Source of the DNA: Alphaproteobacteria bacterium
Lineage (GTDB): Bacteria > Pseudomonadota > Alphaproteobacteria > MPNO01 > VGEU01
Assembly (NCBI GenBank): GCA_016869145.1
Contig: VGEU01000004.1
Location: forward strand, 1-64,000
Direction: 5' to 3'
DNA: 64,000 bases
The notes under the pieces were generated by a model, which had not been told where the DNA came from, did not search any database, and saw only the letters and a list, made by a program, of their open reading frames with translations. The first letter of the stretch is position 1. Each line of letters opens with the position of its first letter. Both the position numbers and the translations under genes were made by a program. This document shows positions 38,376 through 59,620 of this stretch, piece after piece.

Positions 38376-39032
38376 TTATTTCGAGGCGAAGGCCGCGTCG
38401 AAGAACGCGACCTCGAGCGCCACGGCGCGGCGGAACAGCGCGACGCGACCCGCCACCCGATCGACGCCGCCGTCGGGGCCGTGGCGGTCGAGCTCGGCGC
38501 GCATCCAGGCGACGAAGTCGCGGAACCCGGGGTCGGTGTGGAGCGTGATCCACTCGGCATAATAGAAGCGCGACGGCCGCGCATCGGCGACCGCGGATGC
38601 CCAGGTCTCGTAGACCCACTCGACGGGGACGAGGACGGCGAGGATGTCGGCGTAATCGCCGCGGCGCGCCTCGGCGAGAAGCCCCTCGAAGCGATGTGTC
38701 ACGGGCGCGCGCGCCGCAGCGCGCCAGCTGGCCGGCGACACGCCGAGCGCCTCGAACGCGCGGCCGAAATAGGCGTTCTCGTCGCCGGTGAGGACGGCGA
38801 GGAAACCGGCGAAGCGCTTCTTCTCGACCATCGAGGGCGCGGCGGCGACCGCGGCGCCGACGAGGGCGGTGAGCGCGTCGAGGAAGACATAGTCCTGGAC
38901 GAGATAGCGGGCATAGACGGCGAGCTCGAGCGTGTCGGCGGCGAGCGCGCGCGTGAACGGATGGGTCGTCGCCCGCGTCCAGTCGGGCTCCGCCGCGGCG
39001 CGGAGCGTCTCGCTGAAGCATTCGCCCGTCAT
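38376..39032 (-). CDS. tenA: TenA family protein (thiaminase II-like)
   Basis: FTRALAADTLELAVYARYLVQDYVFLDAL; VEWVYETWA; YAEWITLHTDPGFRDFVAWMRAELD. Confidence 0.9.
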   Translation of the reverse strand: MTGECFSETLRAAAEPDWTRATTHPFTRALAADTLELAVYARYLVQDYVFLDALTALVGAAVAAAPSMVEKKRFAGFLAVLTGDENAYFGRAFEALGVSPASWRAAARAPVTHRFEGLLAEARRGDYADILAVLVPVEWVYETWASAVADARPSRFYYAEWITLHTDPGFRDFVAWMRAELDRHGPDGGVDRVAGRVALFRRAVALEVAFFDAAFASK

Positions 39033-56084: not shown

Positions 56085-57239
56085 ATGGACTTCGAACTGC
56101 CGGAAGAGCTCCGGATGCTCAAGCAGACGGTGAGGAGCTTCGTCGACAAGGAGATCATCCCGATCGAGATGACGGCGATGGACCGCCACGACCTCAAGCC
56201 CGAGGTCCGCGCCGCGCTCGAGAAGAAGGCGAAGGAGCTCGGTCTCTGGATGCTCGATGTGCCGACCGAATATGGTGGCCAGGGCCTCAGCATGCTCGGC
56301 CTCGTCGTCGTGTGGGAGGAGATCGCGCGCACGGTCGGCCTGCCGCCGCGCGGGCCGCTGATCTTCGGGCCGGACCCGCGCCCAATCCTCTTCATGCTCA
56401 ACGAGAAGCAGAAGGAGAAATATCTCTACCCCGTGCTGCGGGGCGAGAAGAAGGCGACCTTCTGCCAGACCGAGCCCGATGCCGGCGGCGATCCCGGCTC
56501 GATGCGCACCACCGCCGTGCGCCAGGGTGACCACTACATCCTCAACGGCTACAAGCGTTTCATCAGCCACGTCGATATCGCCGACTTCCTCCAGGTCGTG
56601 TGCGCGACCGACCGCTCCAAGGGCTCGCGCGGCGGGCTCTCGGTGCTGCTCGTCGACAAGGACACGCCCGGCGTCAAGATCACGCGCTCGACCTACAAGA
56701 TGATGGGCGATCTCACCTTCGAGATCGCCTTCGACGACGTCAAGGTCCCGGTCGAGAACCTGATCGGCGAGGAGGGCGCCGGCATGGCGCGGGCCCAGAA
56801 ATGGCTCACCATGGGCCGGCTCTACCAGGCGTGCCGCGGCCTCGGCGTCGCGCAGCGTTCGCTCGAGCTCGCGGTCAAGTACTCGAAGCAGCGTGTCACC
56901 TTCGGCCGCCCGGTCGCCGACCGTCAGGCGATCCAGTTCATGCTCGCCGACATTTATATGAAGCACGAGATGTGCCAGAATTTCGTCTACCGTACGGCGT
57001 GGCGGTCGGACCAGGACACGCTGGAGCGGCACGAGCCCTTCATGTGCAAGGTCTATGGCACCGAGCTCGGCTTCGAGGCGGCGGATCGCTGCCTCCAGAT
57101 TCACGGCGGTCTCGGCCTCACCGTCGAGATGCCGACGCAGAAGATGTGGCGCGATGCGCGCGGCTTCATGATCACCGAGGGTCCGGTCGAGATCATGCGC
57201 TCGGTGATCGCGCGCCACGTCTTCCGCGCCTATGAATAG
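56085..57239 (+). CDS. acyl-CoA dehydrogenase family protein
   Basis: FELPEELRMLKQTVRSFVDKEIIPIE; CQTEPDAGGDPGSMRTTAV; C-terminal IHGGLGLTVEMPTQKMWRDARGFMITEGPVEIMR. Confidence 0.94.
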   Translation: MDFELPEELRMLKQTVRSFVDKEIIPIEMTAMDRHDLKPEVRAALEKKAKELGLWMLDVPTEYGGQGLSMLGLVVVWEEIARTVGLPPRGPLIFGPDPRPILFMLNEKQKEKYLYPVLRGEKKATFCQTEPDAGGDPGSMRTTAVRQGDHYILNGYKRFISHVDIADFLQVVCATDRSKGSRGGLSVLLVDKDTPGVKITRSTYKMMGDLTFEIAFDDVKVPVENLIGEEGAGMARAQKWLTMGRLYQACRGLGVAQRSLELAVKYSKQRVTFGRPVADRQAIQFMLADIYMKHEMCQNFVYRTAWRSDQDTLERHEPFMCKVYGTELGFEAADRCLQIHGGLGLTVEMPTQKMWRDARGFMITEGPVEIMRSVIARHVFRAYE

Positions 57240-57249
57240 GGAGGAGATC

Positions 57250-58047
57250 ATGCGCATCCGTCCGGAGTTCGAACACCTCGTCGCGCTGTCGGGTCTGTTG
57301 TGGGCGGGCGAGGCGGAGGTCGCGCGCACCTACTTCAATGCCAAGACGCGCACGCCCGAGACCGACCGCAAATGGCTCGCCCATCAGGCGTACAAGGAGT
57401 ATTGGGGCTCGGGCTTCGTCGACCCCACGGTCGGATTGATGGGCGAGTGGTCGCGCGAGATCCTCGATAAGATCCCCGCGCTCGACCGCGACCTCGACCG
57501 CCACGACATGCTCGGGCTGGTCGAGCAGATGTACGCCGAGTTCCATCATTATTGCCTGTTCGCCGACATCTATGACGCGCTCCTGCCGCCCGACGGCCGC
57601 AAGCTCACGCCGGCGATGATCAAGAACTGGCCCGAGGGCGAGGCGCTCGACAACTACCGGATCGCGGTGCGCAAGAAGCACGGCGCGTTCGGCTGGAAAT
57701 CGCTCCACTTCACCGAGGGCGGCTATTGCTCGCTCTACCGCGAGGGCGCGCGGCTCAAGGGTCGCGGCGGCATCGACGACCGAATCGCGGCGGCCTGCCA
57801 GCGCGTCTACGACGACGAGGTCGAGCACATGCTCCGCGGCATGCTGGAGATGAACGGCGACGACATGACGGCGGCCGAATGGGCCGCGCTCGAGACCCTC
57901 GTCATCGACCAGCTCCGGCTCCGCATCAAGATGCGGAACGGCCAGTTCGGCTATCCCCTCTCGGACGCGCGGATCGAGGCGATCTACAAGGGCGACATCG
58001 AGCCGATGGCATTCGACTACGGGCTCGCCCGCGCGGCCGCCGAGTAG
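57250..58047 (+). CDS. uncharacterised protein, probable ferritin-like di-iron fold
   Basis: Two ExxH motifs: YAEFHHYCLFADIYDAL and DDEVEHMLRGML in helical context; SD GGGAGGAG upstream of ATG 57250; 10 bp after ACAD stop. Confidence 0.65.
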   Translation: MRIRPEFEHLVALSGLLWAGEAEVARTYFNAKTRTPETDRKWLAHQAYKEYWGSGFVDPTVGLMGEWSREILDKIPALDRDLDRHDMLGLVEQMYAEFHHYCLFADIYDALLPPDGRKLTPAMIKNWPEGEALDNYRIAVRKKHGAFGWKSLHFTEGGYCSLYREGARLKGRGGIDDRIAAACQRVYDDEVEHMLRGMLEMNGDDMTAAEWAALETLVIDQLRLRIKMRNGQFGYPLSDARIEAIYKGDIEPMAFDYGLARAAAE

Positions 58048-58063
58048 GCGCGGTCGGCCGGGC

Positions 58064-58789
58064 TCAGGCCCGGCCGATCGTCTCCTTGATCATCGCCGAG
58101 AAGGCGCGGAGCGCGCCCGCGCCGTCGCCGCGGAACGACGAGCCGTGCATGGCCGCGAGCGTCTGCGGCGCGAGCGCGGCGAGACCCTCGATGATGCCCT
58201 CGGTGCGCGGCGTCCACGGCATCGCATGCGCCATCGGCCCCTGCAATTGCTGGCGCGTATAGGCGGCGGTGCGGCCGAGAATGTCGCTCTCCGTCACCGC
58301 CTCGACGTCGCCGTTGTGACCGAAGAGATCGGAGACGAAGAGCGTCCGCGCGGTTTCCTCGTAGAGGAGGCTCGCGTCCCAGCCATGTGGCACGTGCGCG
58401 GTCGCGATGGTGCGGAACCGATATTTGCCGGTGGTGAGACGCTCGTCGGCGGCGAGAACGCGCGCCGGCTTGTCGCAGTAGTCCGCCATGCACACGCGCG
58501 CGCCGACGAAGCTGCAGAGCGGCTGTGCGTTCGGGGCCACCGCGAGCCACTCGTTCAGCGCGCCGCATTCGTCGGGCTCGAAATGGCTGAAGCCGATCCA
58601 GCGGATCGTCGCCGGGTCGAGGACGCGCGAGGCCGCCTCGCGCACCTCGGGGAACGCGCGGCGAAGATTGGTGTGATAGAGGAGCGGCTCGGCGTCCTTC
58701 ACCAAGAACGAGTTGAACTGGAAGTTGGTCGCCTGGTTGTAGACGGTGAGGCGGTAGATGTCGGGCGCGATCTCCGCGACGGTCGCCAT
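58064..58789 (-). CDS. MBL fold protein of the ODP/flavodiiron (di-iron oxygen-binding) type
   Basis: IGFSHFEPDECGALNEWL (HxExD), TAHVPHGWDA, LFVSDLFGHNGD. Confidence 0.83.
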   Translation of the reverse strand: MATVAEIAPDIYRLTVYNQATNFQFNSFLVKDAEPLLYHTNLRRAFPEVREAASRVLDPATIRWIGFSHFEPDECGALNEWLAVAPNAQPLCSFVGARVCMADYCDKPARVLAADERLTTGKYRFRTIATAHVPHGWDASLLYEETARTLFVSDLFGHNGDVEAVTESDILGRTAAYTRQQLQGPMAHAMPWTPRTEGIIEGLAALAPQTLAAMHGSSFRGDGAGALRAFSAMIKETIGRA

Positions 58790-58907: not shown

Positions 58908-59288
58908 TCAGTTCTGGGCGCGTCGTTTGCGCGGCGGGTGATAGAGGACGAGCATCACGAGGTCCTCGTCGCCGGTGTTGAGGAGGTTGTGGCGCTGGCC
59001 GGCGCTGATCGGCGCTACCGTGCCGGCGCGGAGCGGCGCCGTCCGGCCCTCGACATCGAGCCGGCCCTCGCCGGAGACGACGTAGAACAGATGCGCCCAC
59101 GGCTCGGTGTGCTCGGGCGATCGGCCGCCGGGGCCGATCCGGGTCAGCTCGAGCCCGTAGGCGCCGCCGGTATAGGCGTCATCGACCAGGGTCTTGTAGG
59201 CCGCATGGGAGACCGCGAGCCCGCGGAGCTCGGTCCACGGGATCGAAGCGGGGTCGAAGGCGGGCGGACCCGCCGGCTCGTCATCCAT
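58908..59288 (-). CDS. cupin domain-containing protein
   Basis: GGRSPEHTEPWAHLFYVVSGEGRLDVEG...ISAGQRHNLLNTGDEDLVMLVLY. Confidence 0.88.
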   Translation of the reverse strand: MDDEPAGPPAFDPASIPWTELRGLAVSHAAYKTLVDDAYTGGAYGLELTRIGPGGRSPEHTEPWAHLFYVVSGEGRLDVEGRTAPLRAGTVAPISAGQRHNLLNTGDEDLVMLVLYHPPRKRRAQN

Positions 59289-59620
59289 CACCAATATCCG
59301 ATCGGCCGTTCGCTGCCGGCCACGATATAGGGCCGGCCCCAGGCATCGTAGCACTGGGTGGCGGCGACGGCGACCCGTCGGCCGTACCAGTCGCGCGTCA
59401 CGCGCTCGACCGGGTGGCAGCCATAGGTGCGTGGGCTATGATAGTGGCGCGGCGGCGGGCGGTGATAGTGGCGGTGATAATAGGGCGGCGGGAGGTGATA
59501 GCCGTCGCCGAAGTGGAGCGAGAAGCCGCCGCGGAAGTCACCCGCCTCGGCCGGCGCGGCGATCAGCATCAGCGCCAGGACGGCGATCATGGCCCCGAGG
59601 GCCTTCGTCACGGACCGCAT
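59288..59620 (-). CDS. exported His/Tyr/Pro-rich hypothetical protein
   Basis: Signal peptide then HLPPPYYHRHYHRPPPRHYHSPRTYGCHPVERVTRDWYGRRVAVAATQCYD. Confidence 0.75.
   Translation of the reverse strand: MRSVTKALGAMIAVLALMLIAAPAEAGDFRGGFSLHFGDGYHLPPPYYHRHYHRPPPRHYHSPRTYGCHPVERVTRDWYGRRVAVAATQCYDAWGRPYIVAGSERPIGYW

Follow-up and report, generated by a model that had tools for sequence, protein, structure and literature searches.

The heme-oxygenase-like di-metal oxidases and oxygenases (HDOs: UndA, SznF, BesC, AetD, CADD, PolF; Pfam PF14518) are a fast-growing class of enzymes whose set of three histidine and three carboxylate ligands (3H/3C) is taken as a signature. Of these ligands, core helix 1 contributes a D/E-x2-H motif, core helix 2 a Glu and core helix 3 an H-x3-(D/E)-x2-H motif; in AetD, they are D76/H79, E140 and HX3EX2H, respectively (PMC11611611). 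The 3H/4C class, SznF/RohS, has a further Glu, which comes from auxiliary helix 2 (PMC11611611, PMC13108848), and FlcD is a mononuclear Fe enzyme because the last two ligands, on core helix 3, are lost (PMC13108848, PMC11363339). The known HDOs are mostly enzymes of natural-product pathways (PMC13108848). I describe here a new, unnamed protein family that is probably a ligand-set variant of this kind of enzyme. The member under study, hereafter the candidate, is encoded in the window, i.e. the whole 64,000-nucleotide stretch of DNA that was analysed, where the features of its locus are the following.

57250 to 58047, forward strand: the candidate, a 265-residue predicted heme-oxygenase-fold metalloprotein (open reading frame, alignment, AlphaFold2 model with pLDDT 93.8 and pTM 0.90, Foldseek)
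56085 to 57239, forward strand: acyl-CoA dehydrogenase (ACAD), 384 residues (Pfam N, middle and C domains; closest PDB entry 1ukw)
57240 to 57244, forward strand: Shine-Dalgarno sequence GGAGG of the candidate gene, 5 nt before the ATG at 57250 (sequence)
58064 to 58789, reverse strand: ODP-type di-iron metallo-beta-lactamase-fold protein, 241 residues, convergent neighbour (PF19583; alignment to 1e5d)
58908 to 59354, reverse strand: Cupin_2 protein, a neighbour only (PF07883, E = 2.6e-17)

The open reading frame of the candidate is genuine. Its ATG lies 10 bp downstream of the ACAD stop codon (TAG, 57237-57239) behind a good Shine-Dalgarno sequence, as the initial annotation had read it, and the two genes are probably co-transcribed in the source genome. 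A second in-frame ATG, at 57232, would overlap the end of the ACAD gene, but the alignment of the homologues to the candidate starts only at about residue 3-10. The ACAD matches all three Pfam domains of its family, and its alignment to 1ukw (E = 1e-78) places a retained TEG glutamate on the catalytic-base YEG. Downstream, the metallo-beta-lactamase-fold protein previously credited with a flavodiiron-like signature does match the ODP family (50.9 bits, for a cutoff of 27.2). Its alignment to the rubredoxin:oxygen oxidoreductase ROO of D. gigas retains the six flavodiiron ligand positions H/E/D/H/D/H, read against the Fe-binding residues of that structure, with a Glu in place of the His that follows the Asp of ROO. 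The gene that follows encodes a cupin, again as annotated. The stop codons of the ODP gene and of the candidate gene are 16 bp apart and, because the two genes are convergent, the ODP gene is outside the transcription unit of the candidate. Elsewhere in the window, an uninterrupted reading frame (38376-39032, reverse strand; match G000:C4:38400-38999) encodes a protein related to TenA/THI-4 (PF03070).

Conservation was assessed on an alignment of 44 homologues, whose identity to the window protein ranges from 26 to 61%. The two ExxH motifs that had first drawn attention to the candidate, AEFHHY and DEVEHM, correspond to E97xxH100 and E190xxH193, and their Glu and His are present in every homologue, a conservation that, as judged from this alignment, is far beyond chance. 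Sixteen positions are invariant in all 44 sequences, namely E21, E23, K49, E50, R84, E97, H100, R137, E156, G157, D189, E190, H193, R225, M228 and R229; two homologues from outside the order, aligned with the family profile, keep the same residues when inspected by eye. The polar ones among them can be sorted as follows.

Putative metal ligands: E97, H100, E156, E190, H193
Further invariant carboxylates: E21, E23, E50, D189
Invariant basic residues: K49, R84, R137, R225, R229

The invariance is concentrated on Glu, Asp, His, Lys and Arg, and it is chiefly this pattern that bears out the earlier call of a metal site; a carboxylate/His site in this family is well supported by it. In the AlphaFold2 model, helix 84-110 carries E97xxH100, helix 146-167 carries E156 and helix 175-202 carries E190xxH193, while E21 and E23 sit in helix 5-29, and K49 and E50 in the second helix (36-52). 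Along core helices 1 to 3, the candidate ligands follow the order of the HDOs: E/D-xx-H, then Glu, then (D/E)xxH. However, residue 186, the counterpart of the first His in the HDO motif Hxxx(D/E)xxH, is Ile (28 sequences) or Val (16 sequences) throughout the alignment, and the full 3H/3C set is thus not present in the family. The family differs further from the HDOs in that E21, E23, E50, D189 and the five Lys/Arg residues lie outside the HDO signature, and in a short extra helix (62-78).

The model of the candidate, obtained with the family alignment as input, is all helix, and that of a paralogue about 30% identical to it, built separately, is of similar quality (pLDDT 91.1, pTM 0.87). The leading Foldseek matches of the candidate model in the PDB are TenA, UndA, AetD, CADD-like proteins and FlcD, and all 50 matches listed for the paralogue model are heme-oxygenase-like (TenA, UndA, PolF, BesC, AetD, CADD). 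For both models the probability is about 1.00, with TM-scores of 0.45-0.6 and best E-values of 0.016 for the candidate and 0.0046 for the paralogue; neither model has a Foldseek match below E = 1e-3. Given these modest E-values and TM-scores, the relation to heme-oxygenase-like folds suggested by the models is distant but consistent. The first ferritin-like entry met by the candidate model, a ribonucleotide reductase beta subunit, ranks 40th (probability 0.47, TMq 0.33). Independently, at the sequence level, the family was compared by hhalign with 20 PF14518 proteins; the match (P = 6e-4, probability 28%) scored better than all 60 block-shuffled versions of the family alignment and brought E97, E156 and H193 onto core-helix positions of the HDOs. 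Since no significant match was obtained with HDO subsets of six and of five sequences, sequence homology of the family to HDOs is suggestive only. Alignments of TenA, rubrerythrin and PaaA/PaaC gave no hhalign signal with the family. The PF14518 profile itself unexpectedly matched PaaA/PaaC with a probability of 94%, so single hhalign scores need care, as cross-matches between helical bundles do occur. With two independent models pointing to one fold and no profile signal to rubrerythrin or PaaA/PaaC, the description of the candidate as ferritin-like gives way to heme-oxygenase-like, at the level of predicted structure.

That the initial annotation did not recognise the family is understandable, for searches of Pfam, NCBIfam and PDB sequences with the candidate returned no match, and the family profile found only chance matches in the PDB. 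A Pfam scan of all 44 members produced nothing but scattered sub-threshold matches, none of them to PF14518, and neither the candidate nor any of the 44 matches PF03070. The candidate is one of three paralogues in its own genome, the other two being 31-33% identical to it, and 22 of the 27 source-order genomes carry the family. It is absent from the approximately 165 other class genomes of the first class search, from all but one of 399 phylum genomes, the exception being the source genome itself, and from the plasmids and viral contigs searched. Restriction to the order was considered and rejected when a class-wide profile search uncovered copies in a second, unrelated genus, where five of seven species have one copy, about 42% identical. 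Across the phylum genomes searched, the distribution of the family is therefore sparse and not order-restricted. One source-order match (on contig G011:C78) agrees in position and neighbourhood with that in the Defluviicoccus sp. bin129 record (L004), and another homologue (L015, G019:C93:1533-2306) has two in-frame stops, TGA and TAA, and looks like a pseudogene. Besides its three family copies, the source genome has eight PF14518 matches, an unusually high number (for example C5:14937-15485, C31:6810-7322 and C1:48369-48869), and such matches are present in only 20 of 115 class genomes.

Alignment, models and analogy with characterized enzymes together make it fairly probable that the family is HDO-like but divergent, a metalloenzyme whose ligand set has been altered and which most likely houses a non-heme di-metal (di-iron) centre. 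With the HDOs it shares the predicted fold, the size and the occurrence in biosynthetic or catabolic operons. The conserved residues and their predicted placement are most simply read as a site for two metals, to which two His and no fewer than four carboxylates contribute. The site would comprise E97 and H100 from core helix 1, E156 from core helix 2, and E190 and H193 from core helix 3, and the missing Fe1 histidine would have its place taken by at least one of E50, E23 and E21, so that about two His and at least four carboxylates would take the place of the canonical 3H/3C set. The family, its invariant residues, predicted fold, lost histidine and neighbourhoods are results of the analysis; from the analogy with HDOs I infer the metal, its nuclearity, the O2 chemistry and the nature of the substrate. 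The reduced site would bind O2 and, like UndA or SznF, generate a peroxo-type oxidant, which would oxidise, desaturate or cleave a small anionic substrate gripped by the invariant Lys and Arg residues. Different subfamilies would act on different substrates, that of the candidate being a product or a substrate of the ACAD. A set of two His and at least four carboxylates is not described for the heme-oxygenase-like fold in the HDO literature examined. More tentatively, and as a proposal that could well be wrong, a heme-oxygenase-fold family may have converged on ferritin-like ligands, with carboxylates recruited from auxiliary helices to a putative di-iron site, and may be put to both catabolic and natural-product use. 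The HDO class would be widened by a sister family whose ligand set is different yet strictly conserved; such a family would escape mining based on motifs or Pfam, and would offer a test of the role of the Fe1 histidine.

Other readings of the same residues have to be weighed against a di-metal HDO-like site. The loss of one canonical His recalls FlcD, which has the heme-oxygenase-like fold predicted for the candidate and, like it, a deviating core-helix-3 ligand set, and which is a precedent for ligand loss on that helix resulting in a mononuclear iron enzyme (PMC11363339); here, too, one half of the site, Fe1 or Fe2, might have gone with the missing histidine. This is unlikely, since it is the last two ligands that FlcD lost, whereas their counterparts E190 and H193 are invariant here and the first His is gone, and since several extra invariant carboxylates are what would be expected of a compensated two-metal site. 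A true four-helix ferritin-like protein of a new family, with a carboxylate-bridged di-iron site, would account for the order of the motifs (Glu, ExxH, Glu, ExxH), which is that of rubrerythrin, PaaA/PaaC and AurF-type proteins, and for a few sub-threshold Pfam matches (Ferritin in one of 44 members, E = 0.056; DUF455 in three of 44, the best no better than E = 0.11). I nevertheless hold it to be quite unlikely, because the top folds of both models are heme-oxygenase-like with no four-helix ferritin bundle, so that Foldseek strongly disfavours it, and because the profile comparisons with rubrerythrin and PaaA/PaaC are not significant. Finally, the prominence of TenA structures among the fold matches, and the many invariant Lys and Arg residues that could bind an anionic substrate directly, would fit a non-catalytic or metal-free heme-oxygenase-fold protein, such as a lyase or hydrolase resembling TenA or PqqC, whose conserved acidic and basic residues would make up a substrate site. 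TenA enzymes are not known to have a metal-ligand set such as the one apparent in the candidate family, with which they share the predicted overall fold but no sequence-profile similarity. Without a metal, it is difficult to account for two invariant ExxH pairs and an invariant Glu at the ligand-helix positions of HDOs, which makes this reading most improbable.

The remaining alternative concerns the locus rather than the site, namely that the candidate belongs to a dedicated system, either as an ACAD-coupled oxygenase or within an O2-protection module made of ACAD, candidate and ODP protein. The 10-bp spacing, the strong Shine-Dalgarno sequence and an adjoining ODP protein with a complete ligand set speak for it. 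Linkage was examined by comparing 40 homologous loci of up to about 16 kb each, which contain no close homologue of the window ACAD, nor of the ODP, cupin or hydrolase genes of the window; the sole ACAD encountered, about 6 kb away from a homologue, is only 27% identical. The closest relatives of the ACAD (50-60% identity) are located elsewhere in 24 of the 26 other order genomes, none of them near the candidate family. The ACAD/ODP/cupin neighbourhood is thus private to the source genome and the homologues essentially never co-occur with the ACAD, so that joint acyl-CoA oxidation or O2 protection, as first proposed, is not supported as a conserved function. As the arrangement was seen once and the convergent ODP gene is not co-transcribed, a dedicated system is very unlikely. 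In the source genome alone, a role of the candidate on the ACAD pathway is possible and, because of the 10-bp spacing, the ACAD is its likely pathway partner there.

The loci compared have no constant neighbour or electron-transfer partner in common, and the genes nearby differ from one subfamily to another. The homologue is accompanied by a Mo-hydroxylase large subunit, an SDR, an amidohydrolase and a cupin in four loci (L004, L034-L036), by an NvfI-like 2-oxoglutarate dioxygenase and a GNAT protein in five (L038-L041, L053), by ring-hydroxylating dioxygenase subunits in three (L043, L050, L051), by TauD in three more (L066, L070, L072) and, in many, by a fumarate-reductase-like flavoprotein with a 2Fe-2S protein. 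Proximity to oxygenases is weak evidence because these genomes are very rich in them: the source genome (3.9 Mb) encodes 48 Rieske proteins, and 3-80 are found per genome in the source order. An association with Rieske oxygenases, seen near several copies, was dropped as evidence on this ground.

The clearest context for the family is provided by the second genus, in which the homologue lies in an operon between a methyltransferase gene and a gene for a salicylate-synthase-like enzyme, preceded by an amidase and an AMP-ligase (PaaK/BagE-like), with a further methyltransferase and an ATP-grasp enzyme nearby. This order is kept in all five carriers (one operon ends at the end of its contig) and, in L212, the start and stop codons of the homologue overlap both neighbouring genes. 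The operon resembles a small biosynthetic operon, compact, conserved and apparently undescribed, and this context suggests an O2-dependent tailoring enzyme; the presence of the salicylate-synthase-like gene offers a concrete path to the substrate. An SDR gene is also found at the operon (L212, 1946-12365, and likewise L211, L217, L218 and L219), and a gene of the chromate-transporter family adjoins it.
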